Assembly: GCA_002011815.1 (NCBI GenBank)
Contig: MTOV01000002.1
Coordinates: 275,238-337,137 of the forward strand
DNA: 61,900 nt
DNA from: Nitrospirae bacterium JdFR-86
Lineage (GTDB): Bacteria; Nitrospirota; Thermodesulfovibrionia; Thermodesulfovibrionales; JdFR-86
Reading direction: 5' to 3'
The notes under the pieces are model-generated. The model made no database searches. It saw nothing but the letters and a program-made list of their open reading frames with translations, and was not told the origin of the DNA. This document shows, piece by piece, positions 3,271 to 12,332 of this stretch. Positions within the stretch are counted from its first letter, which is position 1, and each line of letters opens with the position of its first letter. The translations under genes and the position numbers were made by a program.

Positions 3271-3719
3271 AAATTTTTTGTTTTTTCCTCTATCTGGCTG
3301 ATTTTTTCGATTCTACGGGTATGCCTGCCGCCTTCAAACGAGGTTTCCAGCCAAAGCTTTGTAATTTCTCTTGCAAGAGCCTTTCCTGTAACCCTGCCGC
3401 CGATAACAAGAATATTTGCGTCATTGTGAAGTCGGCTCATCTTGGCACTGAAAGGTTCATTGCAGAGGGCTGCCCTGACATTGGGAAATTTGTTTGCGAC
3501 AATAGACATTCCAATGCCTGTGCCGCATATGAGTATACCCCTCTCTACCTCTCCTTTTGAAACAGCGGAAGAAACCTTCTCTCCAAAGTCAGGATAATCA
3601 ACAGACTGCGTGCTGTTAGTTCCGAAATCCTCGCACTCGATCCCCATTTGTTTCAGAAGCGAGAGGAGCTCTTCTTTAAGTTCTACACCTGCGTGGTCAC
3701 ACCCGATGGCAACCTTCAT
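3267..3719 (-). CDS. rpiB: Ribose 5-phosphate isomerase B
   Basis: 150 aa; [18 protein letters not shown]...[44 protein letters not shown]. Confidence 0.96.
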
Positions 3720-3863
3720 CTAAACCTCGACTTATAATCTTATATAAGAGTTCAGGGTTAAGTCAAGGAATGTACCGTTTTCCCGAAAGCCGACAGGACG
3801 AAACCAGCAATTCCTTTCAGTATTTGACAGAACCAGCACCAAAAATTAAAAATATAACCACGG

Positions 3864-5717
3864 GTGGGGCGGCTTCAGGAATTAAAGCTTTCAAGTAAAT
3901 TTTTATTCGGAATAGGAATTATCCTCCTTCTCTTCTGGAGTAGTTTTGCGGTTTTCCTTTACACATACCTCAGAAATGACCTCGTGAAACAAAGCTACGA
4001 AAAAACCGACATATTAATGGGGCACATAAACGCCACAATGCACTATGTAAAAGACAAGCTGAGACCTAAAATGTTCGAGATGATGCCTAAAGACGAAATC
4101 CTCAGAGAGGCGATGTCAACCACATTCATCAACAAGGCAATAATGAAGACGTTTAATCATGAATTTCCGAAATACACCTACAGGAGGGTATCCCCTACCC
4201 CGCTTAACCCCGAAAATAAGGCGGATGACTTTGAGGCAGGCTTTATAGATAACTTCAACCGGACAGGGGAGACTACATGGAAAGGCACGGTAAAAAGAAA
4301 GGGAAATCATTACTTTGTCAATGCCAGGGCGGTGTTTGTGGAGAAAGAATGTGTTACGTGTCATAAAACAGCAAAGCTCGGCGAAATCATAGGTATAGAA
4401 TATGTATCAATACCTGTGGACGACGCCCTTAAGGCAATGAAACGGGTTACCATCTCCATATTCCTGATAGGCGTATCAGGAATGGTCTTTCTTTTTATAA
4501 TCCTCAACGTGTTCATTGACACCGTTGTGGTCAGACCGGTTAAAAAGGTAAGCTCGTTCTTCAAATCAGTTGTCAACGGAGAAAAAAATCTGGACTTCAG
4601 TATAGAAAGCAAAGATGAGATAGGTGAGATGGTTCATTCATTCAACACAATGATGGCATACCTTAAGGAATCAGACGATAAATTAAGGGCGTCGGAGAGC
4701 AAGTATAGGCATATATTCGAAGGCTCAAAAGATGCCATAATAGTGACCGATTGTGAAGGGGACCTCCTTGACGTAAATCCCGCCGGCAGAGAACTGTTCG
4801 GCGAAAAAGTGAAAAGCATGGATGAGCTTTTCATCAACCCCGAGGATTACATCCAGGTCATCAGAGAAATGAACAAAAGAGGTTTTGTAAAGGATTATGA
4901 GACCTCTCTTAAACGTCCCGAGGGTAAAAACCTTGATGTGCTCATAACTGCCAATTACAGGCTCGACGAGAGCTTCAGTATCTGCGGCTATGAGTTTATA
5001 ATAAAAGACATCACCGAGAGGAAATGGATGGAACAGCAATTAAGACAGTCGGAAAGACTTGCTTCACTCGGAAAACTCGCCGCAGGCGTTGCACATGAGA
5101 TAAACAATCCTTTAAGCGTAATACTCGGCTATACAAAACTCCTGATGAAGAACTCTCCTGAAGACAGCAAGGGTGACCTGGAGAAAATCTACAAAAATGC
5201 ACAGGCATGCAAGAAGATAGTGGATGACTTGTTACACTTCTCAAGACGCTCTGAACCCCACCGAAGACAAGCCAGTATAAACGAGCTGCTCGATGATGTC
5301 CTCTCAAGCCTGACAAACACCTTTGCTGAAAACAAAATAACCATAGAGAAGTCTTTAGACAGCACGATACCTAACGTAGTCATAGACACTGACAGGATAA
5401 GACAGGTGTTTATGAACCTCCTCATGAACGCCTCGCAGGCGATATCGTCCGACGGAGTCATCAAAGTCTCAACGACATACGACGCCAAGACCCACAGGAT
5501 TCAGATTGCAATCTCAGACAACGGCTGCGGCATCCCGAAAGAATCCGTCAGCCATATCTTTGACCCGTTCTTTACCACAAGGGACAAAGGCACAGGGCTT
5601 GGTCTTTCAGTTAGCTATGGAATCATTAAGGAACATGGCGGGGAGATATTCGTCACCAGTGAGGTTGGCAAAGGCACGACTTTTACGATACTACTGCCTG
5701 CCAGTGAGGTCAGCTAA
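3864..5717 (+). CDS. Membrane sensor histidine kinase: Tll0287-like/DUF3365-type sensor region with CxxCH, HAMP, PAS, HisKA, HATPase_c
   Basis: 617 aa; N-terminal TM, periplasmic region ending 'KECVTCHKTAKLGE' (CxxCH haem-type motif), second TM, HAMP, PAS, H-box 'GVAHEINNPLSVILG', N/G boxes 'DNGCGIP', 'GTGLGLSVSYGIIKEHGG'. GTG start at 3864. Confidence 0.9.
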   Translation: MGRLQELKLSSKFLFGIGIILLLFWSSFAVFLYTYLRNDLVKQSYEKTDILMGHINATMHYVKDKLRPKMFEMMPKDEILREAMSTTFINKAIMKTFNHEFPKYTYRRVSPTPLNPENKADDFEAGFIDNFNRTGETTWKGTVKRKGNHYFVNARAVFVEKECVTCHKTAKLGEIIGIEYVSIPVDDALKAMKRVTISIFLIGVSGMVFLFIILNVFIDTVVVRPVKKVSSFFKSVVNGEKNLDFSIESKDEIGEMVHSFNTMMAYLKESDDKLRASESKYRHIFEGSKDAIIVTDCEGDLLDVNPAGRELFGEKVKSMDELFINPEDYIQVIREMNKRGFVKDYETSLKRPEGKNLDVLITANYRLDESFSICGYEFIIKDITERKWMEQQLRQSERLASLGKLAAGVAHEINNPLSVILGYTKLLMKNSPEDSKGDLEKIYKNAQACKKIVDDLLHFSRRSEPHRRQASINELLDDVLSSLTNTFAENKITIEKSLDSTIPNVVIDTDRIRQVFMNLLMNASQAISSDGVIKVSTTYDAKTHRIQIAISDNGCGIPKESVSHIFDPFFTTRDKGTGLGLSVSYGIIKEHGGEIFVTSEVGKGTTFTILLPASEVS

Positions 5718-7120
5718 TGCAACAGAATGTACTTATAGTTGATGACAACCCTGACATACTGAGCTTCCTTGAGCGGCTTATAGAGGGGGAACTTGATGTC
5801 CGTGTCCTGACTGCAAAAGATGCGCGCAAAGCACTTGAACTACTTGGAGAGAACAATATATGTCTTATAGTTGCTGATGTGCGAATGCCGGGGATGGACG
5901 GTATCGAGCTACTTAAAGAGACCAAGAAGATAAATGAAAACATAGGCTTCATTATGATGACTGCTTACGGGACTGTAGAGACTGCTGTTGAGTCTCTAAA
6001 ACTCGGTGCTTATGATTTCATCACAAAGCCCTTTGATGAAGAAAGGTTTTTGCACACCATAAAGAATTTTCTCGAACGGCAGAGACTTCTTGAAAGAACC
6101 CTCAGCCTCGAAAAAAGACTCAGGGAAAAAGAAGAGCTAAGCTCTTTGATAGGCGAGTCTCCTCCGATGAAAAAAGTAAAGGATGCAATCAAGATGGTGG
6201 CAAAGACCGATGTTACAGTGCTTATCACTGGAGAGACAGGCACAGGCAAGGAGCTTGCCGCAAGGATAATACACGGGCTCAGCAGCCGCTCCTCAGGACC
6301 GTTCATAACAGTCAACTGCCCTACAATCCCTGAAGCCATCCTCGAGAGCGAACTCTTCGGCTATAAAAAAGGTGCATTCACAAGCGCTATGCAGGACAGA
6401 AAAGGACTGTTTGAGGTTGCAGACCAGGGCACAATATTCCTCGACGAGATAGGCGACATACCACAGTCAGTGCAGACAAAACTCCTCAGGGTGCTTCAGG
6501 AGAAAGAAATAAAACCTCTTGGAGAAACATACACGAAGAAAGTGGATGTCAGGGTCATCGCCTCCACAAACCAGAACCTCCCTGAAAAAATAAAAAACGG
6601 ACAGTTCAGAGAAGACCTGTTTTACAGACTCAATGTCGTCTCCATCAGGATGCCCTCTCTAAGGGAATTAAGAGAAGACATTATCCTTCTTGCCCGGCAC
6701 TTCCTGAAAACTTACACCCATGAACTCGGCACTCCGGAAAAGACCCTCAGTGATGAGGCAACAAAACTGCTCATCTTAAGAACATGGAAGGGAAACGTCA
6801 GGGAACTTCAAAACGCCATACGGCGAGCACTCGTGTTCTCAAAGGGCAATGTGATAACCCCTAAAGACTTTACATCAGACGAACTGTCATGCATAGAGGC
6901 TGAGATAGAAAAAGTCACACATCTACCTTACAAAACTGCAAAGGATAAAGTGCTCAATGCCTTTAATAAACGGTACATAACCGAGCTTTTAAAGCAGACT
7001 GAAGGCAACGTCACGATGGCGGCACAAAGAGCAGGCATCGAGAGGCAATCCCTCCAATACCTCATGAAAAGATATGGAATAACCTCACAGGCATTCAAAC
7101 CCCCTGCAAAAGAAAATTAG
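5717..7120 (+). CDS. Sigma-54-dependent response regulator (NtrC/AtoC family)
   Basis: 467 aa; receiver (VLIVDDNPD, VADVRMPGMDG), AAA+ (GETGTGKELAARIIH, GAFTSA), C-terminal HTH (GNVTMAAQRAGIERQSLQYLMKRYG). Start overlaps the kinase stop. Confidence 0.95.
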   Translation: MQQNVLIVDDNPDILSFLERLIEGELDVRVLTAKDARKALELLGENNICLIVADVRMPGMDGIELLKETKKINENIGFIMMTAYGTVETAVESLKLGAYDFITKPFDEERFLHTIKNFLERQRLLERTLSLEKRLREKEELSSLIGESPPMKKVKDAIKMVAKTDVTVLITGETGTGKELAARIIHGLSSRSSGPFITVNCPTIPEAILESELFGYKKGAFTSAMQDRKGLFEVADQGTIFLDEIGDIPQSVQTKLLRVLQEKEIKPLGETYTKKVDVRVIASTNQNLPEKIKNGQFREDLFYRLNVVSIRMPSLRELREDIILLARHFLKTYTHELGTPEKTLSDEATKLLILRTWKGNVRELQNAIRRALVFSKGNVITPKDFTSDELSCIEAEIEKVTHLPYKTAKDKVLNAFNKRYITELLKQTEGNVTMAAQRAGIERQSLQYLMKRYGITSQAFKPPAKEN

Positions 7121-7122
7121 CA

Positions 7123-7148
7123 GTGCAAGAGAAATTTTGCTCCTGCAC
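7123..7148. promoter_or_regulatory. Imperfect palindrome, candidate upstream activator site
   Basis: GTGCAAGAG-N8-CTCCTGCAC (8 of 9 positions paired), centred about 85 bp upstream of the -24/-12 promoter at 7205-7220; no T-tract, so it does not look like a terminator. Confidence 0.5.
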
Positions 7149-7204
7149 AATCCCTGTCCTACCCTAACTATTCAATTTTATTAGGATTTTTACTTTACGG
7201 ATAA

Positions 7205-7220
7205 TGGCATCATATTTGCT
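7205..7220 (+). promoter_or_regulatory. Sigma-54 (-24/-12) promoter
   Basis: TGGCATCATATTTGCT: GG-N10-GC spacing and close match to TGGCAC-N5-TTGCW; intergenic and just downstream of a sigma-54 activator gene. Confidence 0.75.
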
Positions 7221-7299
7221 CCCTAATTAGTGTGGGGTTGGCAGGATGTCCCTGCGGGGAAACCTGCTATGTGTACATATAAAAATAGGGGAGGGAAAA

Positions 7300-7887
7300 A
7301 TGAAAGGCGTAAAAAGGACACTAGCGTTCTTTGTAATTGTGACATTTGCCTTCAGTTCTGTTGCATTTGCCTTGAACCAGCCAGTATATCCCATAAAGGG
7401 GAAGCACAAATGTGGAAATGTAACACCTCGACAAGCCTATGAGATGCTGAAAAAAGACCCAAAACACACTTTTCTCGTGGATGTAAGAACCCGGTATGAA
7501 TATCAGGACATAGGACATCCAGTAGGAGCTTACAACATCCCGTGGATGTTCTACACGACCAAAGTGGGCAAGAAAGGGTATAAAAAGGTCTTAAACAAGA
7601 ATTTCTGCAGAGACCTCAGGGCACGTTTTAATCCCAGGACAGACACCCTACTCTTGTTGTGCCGGAGTGCAAAGAGAACCATTGCCGCAGCTACAGCGGC
7701 AGTTAACTGCGGATTCAGACCTGACAAGGTCTTCAATGTGCTCGGCGGGTTTGAAGGCGACAAGGTAAAAGACAAAAACAGTCCTTTTTATGGACAGCGC
7801 ATGGTCGGTGGATGGCGTCTTGAGGGTCTTCCATGGACATACAAAATGGACCCGAAACTGATGTACCAGCCTGACCTCGCAAAATAA
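7300..7887 (+). CDS. Exported rhodanese-like domain protein
   Basis: Start at 7300 (GGGGAGGGAAAAATG); signal peptide MKGVKRTLAFFVIVTFAFSSVAFA; rhodanese core 'FLVDVRTRYEYQDIGHPVGAYNIPW', catalytic loop 'LLCRSAKRT'. Confidence 0.88.
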   Translation: MKGVKRTLAFFVIVTFAFSSVAFALNQPVYPIKGKHKCGNVTPRQAYEMLKKDPKHTFLVDVRTRYEYQDIGHPVGAYNIPWMFYTTKVGKKGYKKVLNKNFCRDLRARFNPRTDTLLLLCRSAKRTIAAATAAVNCGFRPDKVFNVLGGFEGDKVKDKNSPFYGQRMVGGWRLEGLPWTYKMDPKLMYQPDLAK

Positions 7888-7996
7888 AATCAAAAAGGGG
7901 GTGGTAGCTGATTCGGACTTGACGAGCCATATAACCTGTGATATAGGGAAGGATAGGATTATGCTCTCTTTCAAAAAATATTAAAGGAGGCAAACA

Positions 7997-8194
7997 ATGC
8001 AAGAGGAAGAAAAAAAGGAAATAAGTGGTACGGGGTCTTTAACAGGTGAGGCTCTGGAAGCAGAAGACGTGTTGGCTGGTGCTGAGCCATGGGATCCGAT
8101 TGAGACAAAGCTGGTTGTGTGGTCTTTTATTGCAGCGCTCATCGCTCTAATAATTGGTTTATTAGTTGTGCCAACCTCTATCTTTTTTCACTGA
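7997..8194 (+). CDS. Small single-TM protein of the exporter operon
   Basis: 65 aa, AAAGGAGGCAAACAATG start context; acidic N-terminus, C-terminal TM 'LVVWSFIAALIALIIGLLVVPTSIFF'. Confidence 0.7.
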   Translation: MQEEEKKEISGTGSLTGEALEAEDVLAGAEPWDPIETKLVVWSFIAALIALIIGLLVVPTSIFFH

Positions 8195-8196
8195 GG

Positions 8197-8445
8197 ATGC
8201 ATACAGAATACCTCATACGGCATAACGGAAAAAGCTGGGTAGCAGAAAATGAACTCTGCAGTCTCTCTGCTTCAACACTTGAGGAACTCGACCTCAAAGT
8301 AGAAACACACCTGAGACAGACAGGACTGCTGAAAAAAGGCGAACGGATGAGGGTCTTCATGTTCTTCGACAACTCGACCATTCCCGAATGGATCCGGCAG
8401 TACGCCCAGCATTATTTCAACAGGGTCATAGAAGTAAAAGGATAA
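8197..8445 (+). CDS. Small conserved-looking hypothetical protein (possibly DUF5395-like)
   Basis: 82 aa: MHTEYLIRHNGKSWVAENELCSLSASTLEELDLKVETHLRQTGLLKKGERMRVFMFFDNSTIPEWIRQYAQHYFNRVIEVKG. ATG 2 nt after the previous stop; replaces the longer ORF-track start at 8119. Family name is from memory. Confidence 0.65.
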   Translation: MHTEYLIRHNGKSWVAENELCSLSASTLEELDLKVETHLRQTGLLKKGERMRVFMFFDNSTIPEWIRQYAQHYFNRVIEVKG

Positions 8446-8484
8446 AAAATTGGATCCTTTAAAAACCAAAATAGGGGGATTCTA

Positions 8485-10095
8485 ATGACAGATCTTTCTA
8501 ACAGGAAATGGTATACAGGGATGACAACCCAGGAAGACTGGTGGGCTGTATGGCTAGGTCTCGGCTTCTTCTGTTTAGGGCTTCTTACCTTGGCAGGAGT
8601 TGACCTTGTCGGCTGGATTGCTTATCCAAAAAAATGGGTCTTCAGTCTCCCTGAAGGAGCCGTGGCTAAAAAAATCGTCACACCGGACAAGGCGTTCTAC
8701 GCACTCGGAGGGAAATACAGTATAACTGCCAAGGGCTTCTACAAAAGTCTGGGACCAATAGGAAGCATACTTGTAACCTATTTAGTCTTCACCGTTGCCA
8801 CTACCATCGGTGCTTACTTCATGAAGTGGAACATTAAAAGATACATAACCGGCTGGACGATTATATTTTTCCTGACATATCTGGTATGGTTCATCGGACA
8901 TCACGCCTTCTTTGCGGCAACTGCAGTTGACCTCAAGAAGAGCAAGTTTCCTGATATGTTCACCCTTTCGCTCGGTGGTGGTGCATCGTTTATTCTGGCT
9001 CTGATTGTAGGGCTGATAATAGGGAACTTCTTCAAGGGGTTTGCAAGCTATTTAAGCACGGCTGCCAAGCCTGAATGGTTCATAAAAACGGCAATCGTGT
9101 TCCTTGGGGTTAAGGTAGGATATCTACCGATAAAAGCAGCCGCGTCTTCAGCAAAACTTGGGAAAGAGGTAGCAGGGCTTACTGGTGAACTGTTCATTGC
9201 AGGCGCAGCTGCAACAGTAGTAGCTTATCTGATATTCTGGCCTGGTGTGTATCTGATATCGAGAAAGATATTTAAACTGCCACGCAAAACAGCTGCTGTT
9301 CTTGGCTCTGGAATCTCTATCTGTGGTGTCTCTGCTGCTGTAGCCACAGGTGGAGCAGTGAGGGCAAAGCCAGTGGTATCCATAATGGTCTCTGCTCTGG
9401 TGGTTGTATGGGCAGTCATCGAGCTTATCATCTTGCCTGGGTTCTTTACCCACGTCTGGCCCCGAACAGACGACCCACTTGTGGCAGGAGCTGCAATGGG
9501 AATGTCTGTTAAGACAGACGGTGCAGATGCAGCCGCAGGAGAGCTAATGGATGAATTCATGCGAACTAAGATAGAAAGGGACACACACGGCGCAGTGCAG
9601 TGGCCTGAAGGCATTATAACTGTAAGCGCAGTTATGACCAAAATCTGGATAGACATGTTCATCGGACTGTGGGCATTTATTCTTGCACTGCTTTGGGTCT
9701 ATCGAATCGAACGACGACCAGGGGAACGGGTTATGGCATCGGAAGTGTGGCACCGATTCCCGAAATTCGTTCTCGGATATTTTGCCGCATGGTTCATTTA
9801 TCTCGCAATATTCTTCGGACCAGGACATGCCGGCGCACCCGAAGGCATGGATGTACTTAAAGCGGCAACAGCAGGTGCAGTGCCAGTGGAAAAAGGCATG
9901 CGAAAGTTCTTCTTCATGCTGACCTTCATGAGCCTTGGAATCATCACTGACTTTAAAAAGCTCAGAGAAGCCCAGTTCGGGAAAATGGTATGGGTATACT
10001 TCGTCGCACTCTTCCTGTTCATAATACCTGTGGCTATACTTATCGCCTACATCTTCCATCACGGCATGCAGATACCCAACATAGCTCCTCAGTAA
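8485..10095 (+). CDS. YeiH-family putative sulfate exporter, long form
   Basis: 536 aa polytopic protein; YeiH/UPF0324-like segments 'EWFIKTAIVFLGVKVG', 'RKTAAVLGSGISICGVSAAVATGGAVRAK', 'MRKFFFMLTFMSLGIITDFKKL'. Confidence 0.82.
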   Translation: MTDLSNRKWYTGMTTQEDWWAVWLGLGFFCLGLLTLAGVDLVGWIAYPKKWVFSLPEGAVAKKIVTPDKAFYALGGKYSITAKGFYKSLGPIGSILVTYLVFTVATTIGAYFMKWNIKRYITGWTIIFFLTYLVWFIGHHAFFAATAVDLKKSKFPDMFTLSLGGGASFILALIVGLIIGNFFKGFASYLSTAAKPEWFIKTAIVFLGVKVGYLPIKAAASSAKLGKEVAGLTGELFIAGAAATVVAYLIFWPGVYLISRKIFKLPRKTAAVLGSGISICGVSAAVATGGAVRAKPVVSIMVSALVVVWAVIELIILPGFFTHVWPRTDDPLVAGAAMGMSVKTDGADAAAGELMDEFMRTKIERDTHGAVQWPEGIITVSAVMTKIWIDMFIGLWAFILALLWVYRIERRPGERVMASEVWHRFPKFVLGYFAAWFIYLAIFFGPGHAGAPEGMDVLKAATAGAVPVEKGMRKFFFMLTFMSLGIITDFKKLREAQFGKMVWVYFVALFLFIIPVAILIAYIFHHGMQIPNIAPQ

Positions 10096-10121
10096 ATAGA
10101 AATATTTTGCCTGGGTAGGAT

Positions 10122-10162
10122 AAAATGGGTCTATGAGGATAGCCCTCATAGACCCATTTTTT
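10122..10162 (+). terminator. Rho-independent terminator
   Basis: 17-bp perfect stem AAAATGGGTCTATGAGG / CCTCATAGACCCATTTT followed by TT. Confidence 0.9.
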
Positions 10163-10178
10163 AACCAAAACTTGTTAA

Positions 10179-10529
10179 ATGAATAAAGTAGAAGACAAAA
10201 CCAAACGCAAAATATTAAGAGAATTAACAATCAAAGCCAAATTTCTGAATTATACTGCGCTGTTCTCCATAATAATCTTTATACTGCTTCTTCTGAGGCT
10301 CTATCCCAACTGGGAACATTCCAAATGGCTCTTCGCTATTGCATTGTTCATGGAATGCTTTTCTATCGGATTTTTTGTCCTGACAAGACGCATAAAGGGA
10401 ATACTTGAAGGAGACCCTACTGATGAAGAAATCATCAAATGGGCGAATTTTCTGTCGTATTACTACTATCCCAAATTCATCTTCCGCAAAAAGCGAAACC
10501 CGTTTATCGTCCCTGATGACGAAGATTAG
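10179..10529 (+). CDS. Hypothetical membrane protein
   Basis: 116 aa, two predicted TM segments (LNYTALFSIIIFILLLLRLYP, WLFAIALFMECFSIGFFVL), charged tail. Confidence 0.6.
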   Translation: MNKVEDKTKRKILRELTIKAKFLNYTALFSIIIFILLLLRLYPNWEHSKWLFAIALFMECFSIGFFVLTRRIKGILEGDPTDEEIIKWANFLSYYYYPKFIFRKKRNPFIVPDDED

Positions 10530-10538
10530 CCTACAGAC

Positions 10539-12332
10539 TTAACGCAGGTAATATATAAGCAGGTAAGCCAGCAGGAATGCAGTCACCCACAGGACAGTCG
10601 AACCTGTAGGCCAGTGCTTGATTGTATCCCCGGGATAAATGTCCTTTTCCCTTTTTATCCTCTTTTTAATCTCTGCCTTACGCTGAGGGCTGCCCAGCAG
10701 AAGGAATACGGAATCAGAGACCATCTTTACCGCTGCCAATGGGTTTTTGCTAAACCACGCAAGTGAGCCAGGAATGGACTCAAAAAATACCTTTCTTAGC
10801 CTGTTGCCGACTACAGACATCGGGACTTCCACAAACCACATAAACGCCCCTGCACCTTTCCTGTAAAACCAGTCTGTATCAAGATTCACAGCCCTGATTT
10901 CCGAAGGATAAATGCCAGAAAGCATCAGAAGAGTAAACGCCAGTGCAGAAAAGAACAGCAGTTGCAGTTGTGCCATTACATGAGGCGCAGTGTAAGGCTC
11001 ATACTCGACAGGATACGGAAGAATGCTGTAAAGAGGCGCAGGAAACGTGCCGATGAAAACGCACAGGAAAGCCGTAATCCCCATGGCTATGAGCATATTA
11101 ACCGGAGGCTCTTTTGCCCTGATGCCTGAGTCATGCGAGAAGAATGCAAAATACGGTATCTTAATCCCTGCATGATGAAACACACCTGCTGATGCAAACA
11201 GAAGAACAAACCATATAGCAGTCAAGCTCTCGTGAGCAGCAGCAGACATAACCATTGACTTACTCACAAAGGCACTGAACAGGGGAAACGCAGAGATTGA
11301 CGCAGCGCCTACTATACAGAATATACATGTCAATGGCATGGTCTTATATAAACCGCCAAGGTCTGTGGCATTGATCTTTCCAGTCTGCTGCATAACAGCT
11401 CCCATGGACATGAAAAGAAGCGCTTTAAACAATATGTCATTGAACGCATGAGCAGCAGCACCGTTTATTGCCAGCTCTGTGCCTATCCCAATACCGACCA
11501 CCATAAACCCGACCTGATTGATAAGACTGTATGAAAGCACCCTTCTTAAATCATTTTCAATCACAGCGTAAAAGATAGGAAATGCCGTCATCAAGGCTCC
11601 AATCCATATAAGGGGTTCAGCTCCAGGAAATGCTCTTGCCAGAACATAAACAGCAGTCTTTGTCGTAAAAGCGCTTAAAAACACCGTGCCTGCAATAGTC
11701 GCCTCTGGATAGGCATCCACAAGCCATGCATGCAGGACAGGCCAGGCGCAGTTCAGACCAAATCCGATGAATATAAGATATGACGCCAACCCGTTTAAAC
11801 CTATATATCCGAATTCAATCGAACCGTTCTCATACGCATAAATGACTATGCCTGCGAAAAGCACAATCCCCCCGAAGATATGAACCAGAACATACCTGAA
11901 CCCTGCCTTAAGCGATTTCTCTGTCCTGCGCGCCCAGACAAGAAACACCGAGCTTATGGTCATCAGTTCCCAGAAACAGAACAGGCTGAACAGGTCTCCT
12001 GCAAAAACAACACCCAGAGACCCGCCTGCATAAAGAAGACCTGCAACGTATTCAACATCATTCCTTATGTGAATGCCGTAAAGAAGAACAATGAAAGAAA
12101 TAATATGAAAGACGTATCCAAACAGCAGGCTCAACCTGTCTACCTTAAGCAGTATGAGATTGTAATCCAGAAACCTGAAAGTAAGATGCACACCTTCAGG
12201 AATACCAAGAAGGTTTATAAATCCCAAGACAGGAAGGGCTAATAAATATGCACTCTTTGCCCTCCCCCTGAGCAGAGGAACAAGAAACGCTCCAATGATG
12301 AATACTACTGCAGGCAGAACAGGATTAATCAT
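10539..12332 (-). CDS. Mrp/Mbh-type antiporter subunit, NuoL/M/N family (third copy in operon)
   Basis: Polytopic; 'LFSLFCFWELMTISSVFLVW', 'LSYSLINQVGFMVVGIG', 'AAHAFNDILFKALLFMSMGAV'. Start chosen at MINPVLP (GAGGATTATTATG), 8-nt overlap with the upstream ORF. Confidence 0.9.
   Translation of the reverse strand: MINPVLPAVVFIIGAFLVPLLRGRAKSAYLLALPVLGFINLLGIPEGVHLTFRFLDYNLILLKVDRLSLLFGYVFHIISFIVLLYGIHIRNDVEYVAGLLYAGGSLGVVFAGDLFSLFCFWELMTISSVFLVWARRTEKSLKAGFRYVLVHIFGGIVLFAGIVIYAYENGSIEFGYIGLNGLASYLIFIGFGLNCAWPVLHAWLVDAYPEATIAGTVFLSAFTTKTAVYVLARAFPGAEPLIWIGALMTAFPIFYAVIENDLRRVLSYSLINQVGFMVVGIGIGTELAINGAAAHAFNDILFKALLFMSMGAVMQQTGKINATDLGGLYKTMPLTCIFCIVGAASISAFPLFSAFVSKSMVMSAAAHESLTAIWFVLLFASAGVFHHAGIKIPYFAFFSHDSGIRAKEPPVNMLIAMGITAFLCVFIGTFPAPLYSILPYPVEYEPYTAPHVMAQLQLLFFSALAFTLLMLSGIYPSEIRAVNLDTDWFYRKGAGAFMWFVEVPMSVVGNRLRKVFFESIPGSLAWFSKNPLAAVKMVSDSVFLLLGSPQRKAEIKKRIKREKDIYPGDTIKHWPTGSTVLWVTAFLLAYLLIYYLR

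Follow-up and report, generated by a model that had tools for sequence, protein, structure and literature searches.

Transporters of the YeiH family (PF03601, the putative sulfate exporter, or PSE, family) occur widely, and no substrate has been proven for them. Sulfite resistance in Salmonella depends mainly on YeiH, whose gene is switched on by sulfite, and the published work makes sulfite a likelier substrate than sulfate (PMC12880088). Here we describe a locus that offers this family a testable function. It lies within a stretch of 61,900 nucleotides (the window) from Nitrospirae bacterium JdFR-86 (contig MTOV01000002.1, positions 275,238 to 337,137), where a long YeiH-type transporter stands downstream of a sensor kinase with a candidate haem c domain, an NtrC-type regulator and an exported rhodanese. 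The unit brings together YeiH, a candidate haem c sensor and the DUF5395 family and supplies a minimal set of genes along with a predicted promoter and a predicted binding site, which makes sensor, ligand and substrate directly testable.

Several described systems resemble parts of this locus. In the YeiE-YeiH system of Salmonella, as here, a regulator adjoins a PF03601 transporter, and that transporter confers sulfite resistance (PMC12880088). There, however, the regulator is a LysR-type cytoplasmic sulfite sensor that accompanies a single short transporter, whereas here a haem-type membrane kinase and a sigma-54 activator precede a three-gene module with a long YeiH. In sulfate reducers, sigma-54-controlled PSE (YeiH-like) transporters with no known substrate have been noted in the PSE/TSUP operons of Desulfovibrio vulgaris (PMC4641369). 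Consequently, the link between sigma-54 and such a transporter is not new in itself. Nevertheless, the available part of that report describes no haem sensor, DUF5395/TM65 module or rhodanese linkage, and it ties some of the operons to lactate genes. The TspS-TspR system of Acidithiobacillus caldus differs in that it controls the Sox system, with thiosulfate as the proposed signal and another activator site (PMC6335251). The BigR operon of Xylella and Agrobacterium is likewise a sulfur-stress operon, with an enzyme that carries a rhodanese (sulfur transferase) domain and serves sulfite detoxification; it differs in having the BigR repressor and a sulfur dioxygenase fusion, and the available text mentions neither a two-component system nor YeiH (PMC5823870).

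Finally, the kinase carries the same CxxCH domain as the sCache_heme sensors (PMC12889525; Protein Data Bank (PDB) entry 5B82), likewise fused to HAMP and a signalling output. Such haem c Cache sensors have been recognized only recently, and no target operon is named for them in the accessible part of that preprint; here, in contrast, a target can be proposed from the sequence. What is new at this locus is thus the pairing with a haem-type sensor, the promoter and activator sites, and the three-gene module. In sulfate reducers and related bacteria, for which sulfite is both a central intermediate and toxic, the unit would be a candidate safety valve.

Organization of the locus

The features are as follows (positions in the window; aa, amino acids; TM, transmembrane segment).

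3864 to 5717, + strand: sensor histidine kinase, 617 aa, with a TM, an extracytoplasmic Tll0287/sCache_heme domain (CVTCHK), a second TM, HAMP, PAS, HisKA and HATPase (Pfam)
5717 to 7120, + strand: NtrC-type response regulator and sigma-54 activator, 467 aa (Pfam and sequence)
7105 to 7122 and 7124 to 7141, + strand: predicted tandem activator sites TGCAAAAGAAAATTAGCA and TGCAAGAGAAATTTTGCT, of inverted-repeat type, with 19-bp spacing
7205 to 7220, + strand: predicted sigma-54 (-24/-12) promoter TGGCATCATATTTGCT, with one mismatch to the consensus
7300 to 7887, + strand: exported single-domain rhodanese, 195 aa, with a CRSAKR loop (PF00581)
7997 to 8194, + strand: single-TM protein of 65 aa (TM65), signature EPWxPxETKLV, gene 1 of the exporter module (alignment and signature)
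8197 to 8445, + strand: DUF5395 (PF17373) protein, 82 aa, gene 2 of the module (Pfam)
8485 to 10095, + strand: long YeiH-type transporter, 536 aa (PF03601), gene 3 of the module
10122 to 10160, + strand: intrinsic terminator (-28.8 kcal/mol, z = -8.6)
10179 to 10529, + strand: two-TM protein of 116 aa, 3′ of the terminator

A preliminary description, made from the sequence alone, had placed six genes here, from the kinase to the transporter. Gene calls and Pfam matches across 3864 to 10529 agree with that placement, all six lying on the + strand in the order given, and the ATG of the regulator shares one base with the stop codon of the kinase (position 5717). The start of the rhodanese, by contrast, has been moved from 7246 to the ATG at 7300, which has a ribosome-binding site (ggaggg) upstream and a signal-peptide-like N-terminus downstream. 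The DUF5395 family, the sigma-54 promoter and the activator sites (7105 to 7141) had been left unnamed, and the module genes had been listed without being recognized as a three-gene exporter.

Linkage of the kinase-regulator pair with the exporter

Among 61 genomes of the order Thermodesulfovibrionales, the kinase-regulator pair is linked to a YeiH-family gene in 24 loci, that is, the pair is followed by such a gene on the same strand, which is far beyond chance. These counts use tblastn positions; antisense open reading frames masked real genes in L051, L054 and L081. In Nitrospirota, the pair lies upstream of the exporter and is co-directional with it. In Desulfobacterota, by contrast, a CxxCH kinase is divergent from the module (L093, L108, L112, L114, L117, L118 and L134), with the regulator behind the kinase where the contig reaches that far and sigma-54 sites before the exporter in most cases. 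That kinase and module are paired under two different gene orders is better explained by function than by inheritance of one block. Elsewhere, for example in Bacillota and ammonia oxidisers, the module occurs but the pair does not.

The regulator has the receiver, sigma-54 activation and Fis helix-turn-helix (HTH) domains. Between it and the rhodanese, TGGCATCATATTTGCT is the single best sigma-54 match in the window on either strand. A sigma-54 site, defined by a GG/GC core, no more than two mismatches and a distance of up to 260 bp from the stop codon of the regulator, is found downstream of the regulator in all 24 linked loci, as against 30 of 2899 control windows (1%). The activator motif TGCAANANAANTTTTGCA lies downstream of 15 of the 16 type-1 regulators, which are those closest to the window regulator (53-61% identity), and almost nowhere else within those loci; more distant regulators (~41%) have another repeat, GGGAAC...GTTCCC. 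A motif search of the host genome (2.1 Mb) returned one exact activator site, at this locus, and one weaker match elsewhere, so that the predicted regulon is probably this operon alone. With rpoN present in the host genome, the locus thus has the receiver, AAA+ and HTH domains, the -24/-12 promoter and the upstream inverted repeats of an NtrC-type regulon. The proposal that a haem-type sensor controls a YeiH transporter therefore holds as regards linkage, in the 24 loci and in Desulfobacterota, and conserved promoter architecture, while the haem itself is predicted.

Type-1 regulators precede two YeiH subfamilies, which are 73-84% and 25-29% identical to the window YeiH. This suggests, from gene order, that both subfamilies may serve the same job. 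In one genome (G002), a module without a regulator (L054) coexists with a kinase-regulator pair beside the other YeiH subfamily (L081). In the Desulfobacterota-type locus L094, a perfect activator site and a sigma-54 site precede the module and there is no kinase on the fetched stretch; this module is possibly regulated in trans. The host contig C2 has two more YeiH-family genes (L088:8090-12288 and L089:7803-10253), each directly before a kinase-like gene, which in L088 encodes a 1080-aa multi-PAS/GAF kinase; these are further pairings of a kinase with a transporter.

The three-gene exporter module

The transporter matches PF03601 at 70.7 bits (1e-19; gathering score, 24.5) and keeps the family core motif SICGxSAA, and the 82-aa protein matches DUF5395 at 9e-29. 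Of the 61 genomes of the order, 8 have DUF5395, the same eight that have the long YeiH (at least 73% identity); it always lies directly upstream of the transporter gene and, in all eight, is preceded by TM65, with the three genes on one strand. A cross-phylum scan with one genome per species gave, as its best 80 long-YeiH loci, members of Nitrospirota, Desulfobacterota, ammonia oxidisers, other Proteobacteria, Bacillota and others. Among these best 80, DUF5395 adjoins the long YeiH in 78, the two exceptions being cut at a contig end, and TM65 was found by BLAST or by its signature EPWxxWETKLV in 76, the rest having contig ends or short upstream sequence. As judged from this gene order, the exporter is a conserved TM65-DUF5395-long YeiH module. 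At L148 and L167-L169, a DUF5395 match lies 3′ of YeiH on the opposite strand.

The predicted DUF5395 model (mean pLDDT, 75.6) has a strand-strand-strand-helix-strand order and no significant match in the PDB (best E, 0.5); there is a weak match to a HicB-like antitoxin. The long YeiH model was built from an alignment of eight rows, which is too shallow, and has a mean pLDDT of 39; a sequence search of the PDB with YeiH gave no direct match. In a plasmid collection, there were only distant YeiH matches and DUF5395 was not found, and no paper that mentions this family was found in the literature searched.

Two further proteins recur after the module in L094, L095, L097-L102 and other loci, between +1.6 and +2.1 kb when counted from where YeiH starts, and are possible accessory genes: another membrane protein of ~120 aa (IPPRNKIM...GIxL end) in 23 loci and a protein of ~60 aa (KPEITESTATxFV) in 12.

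The sensor domain

Pfam assigns the kinase a Tll0287-like domain (7e-23) followed by HAMP, PAS, HisKA and HATPase, with ECVTCHK in the extracytoplasmic domain; the PF11845 profile scores 82 bits against a cut-off of 24.1. The CxxCH motif is invariant in 11 of 11 aligned sensors, and the sensor profile matches the solved Tll0287 structure 5B82 (E, 2.4e-8). Covalent haem c has been reported for the sCache_heme (DUF3365/Tll0287) family in a preprint (PMC12889525), which, as far as its available part goes, agrees with the earlier statement that Tll0287 domains can bind haem. Thus, the extracytoplasmic domain of the kinase probably carries covalent haem c.

According to the same preprint, stand-alone sCache_heme members use an axial cysteine, while a signalling member from P. 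azotoformans without one binds nitric oxide (NO) tightly, releases it slowly (6e-4 per s) and forms no stable oxygen complex, so that NO has to be taken seriously as a candidate for the ligand of signalling members (PMC12889525). The only cysteines of the window sensor domain are the two of CxxCH. It therefore belongs, like the P. azotoformans protein, to the type without the axial cysteine. In the region encoded by 4350 to 4400, the window sensor also lacks ~19 residues after CxxCH (GxPxxAPxxLxxxYG...) that all ten aligned relatives have.

The rhodanese

The exported protein matches PF00581 at 45.7 bits against 22.2 (9e-12), and its six-residue loop CRSAKR starts with the catalytic cysteine. 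No second PF00581 domain was detected in the host genome. The preliminary description had treated it as a partner in the unit and had looked to conservation of all six genes. This stands for the kinase and regulator with YeiH and fails for the rhodanese subtype of the window, which is not a fixed part of the unit because close homologues stand apart from it. A fixed rhodanese-YeiH pair was accordingly rejected for this subtype, whose close homologues occur elsewhere without YeiH.

Nevertheless, an exported rhodanese occupies the slot between regulator and transporter in 8 of the 24 loci, including the window. The seven others are of unrelated types, two-domain in L057, L063, L077, L078 and L080 and single-domain in L062 and L064. 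That rhodaneses of unrelated kinds have been recruited several times supports the view that the theme is sulfur chemistry. In L062 (5339-11586) and L064 (3732-9893), the haem kinase and regulator are followed by a universal stress protein, a second PF03601 protein, a universal-stress-like gene, the exported rhodanese, a 198-aa protein and the long YeiH, apparently as one large sigma-54 operon.

Proposed mechanism and alternatives

The reading that we favour, with middling confidence, is that sensing through haem c and a sigma-54 promoter together drive the export of sulfite or of a related sulfur oxyanion. The Dsr enzymes act on sulfite, which is toxic, and the host genome carries dsrA with a dsrB-like gene adjacent. 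The extracytoplasmic kinase, probably with haem c, would sense a reactive sulfur species (sulfite being the candidate that we favour), a redox change outside the membrane or a linked NO signal and would phosphorylate its NtrC-type partner. The activator would then bind the pair of inverted repeats that closely follows its gene and drive the single sigma-54 promoter. The operon may thereby yield a three-protein exporter of TM65, DUF5395 and the long YeiH, which would clear excess sulfite, or a related sulfur oxyanion, produced in the cytoplasm by dissimilatory sulfite metabolism. In this species, the exported rhodanese could join exported sulfite and sulfane sulfur into thiosulfate, or catalyze the reverse.

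Several observations weigh against sulfite efflux of this kind. Homologues of the window rhodanese in three relatives (74-80% identity) lie apart from the kinase, the regulator and YeiH. The long YeiH reaches only 22 bits against the 232.6-bit cut-off of the NCBI YeiH subfamily TIGR00698; it is thus a distant relative and not YeiH proper, and it may carry a different substrate than the Salmonella protein does. L054, from a relative in the same family, has the module with neither a regulator nor a sigma-54 site. In Nitrosomonas, Nitrosospira and Nitrosovibrio (L164, L153, L157 and L147), which are ammonia oxidisers, the module occurs without the haem kinase and a sulfite load is not obvious. 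Lastly, a signalling member of the same kind as the window sensor, without the axial cysteine, is the one reported to bind NO tightly (PMC12889525).

This last point bears on the main alternative, a somewhat unlikely one, in which the kinase is a sensor of NO, and thus of nitrosative stress: NO or nitrite would poison dissimilatory sulfite reductase, sulfite would build up, and the operon would export sulfite or a non-sulfur cargo. The two-cysteine sensor domain and the lack of a stable oxygen complex in the P. azotoformans protein are consistent with such a role, although a single signalling sCache_heme member is all that has been tested biochemically, in a preprint (PMC12889525). Moreover, no NO- or nitrite-handling gene was recognized among the conserved neighbours, and the rhodaneses and YeiH proteins point instead to sulfur.

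It is unlikely that the exporter carries another anion, for instance a small organic acid or a nitrogen oxyanion, with the rhodanese being incidental. Its presence in ammonia oxidisers and the distance of the long YeiH from the rest of its family would suit such a cargo, as would the sigma-54-dependent PSE transporters of D. vulgaris, two of which are co-regulated with lactate genes (PMC4641369). However, sulfite stress is the sole subject of the functional data found for the superfamily (PMC12880088), the operon repeatedly contains an exported rhodanese, and the hosts carry dsrA. That the two-component genes are mere neighbours of an unrelated exporter operon is highly improbable: some relatives, L054 and L068 among them, do have the exporter and no kinase, but the idea is contradicted by 24 loci of the order and, with another orientation, a second phylum in which the two are linked, and by the conservation of promoter and activator sites where regulator and operon meet.

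Beyond sulfur oxyanion efflux at this locus, we tentatively consider a wider proposal possible: that TM65, DUF5395 and the long YeiH form a new family of three-subunit anion exporters across many phyla and that, in bacteria that metabolize sulfite, the kinase that gates it would be the first with an extracytoplasmic haem c to read sulfite, or else NO as a stand-in signal that sulfite reduction is blocked.

Limits of the operon

The intrinsic terminator at 10122 to 10160 makes the YeiH gene the end of the operon. The preliminary description had extended the system to 10529; its six genes lie within the operon, while the 116-aa gene that ends there falls beyond the terminator. This gene (10179 to 10529) was considered as an operon member and ruled out by the strength of the terminator, and it is probably outside the sigma-54 operon. 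A search of positions 3500 to 10700 against Rfam gave no match. Homologues of the 116-aa two-TM protein come after the exporter in several relatives.

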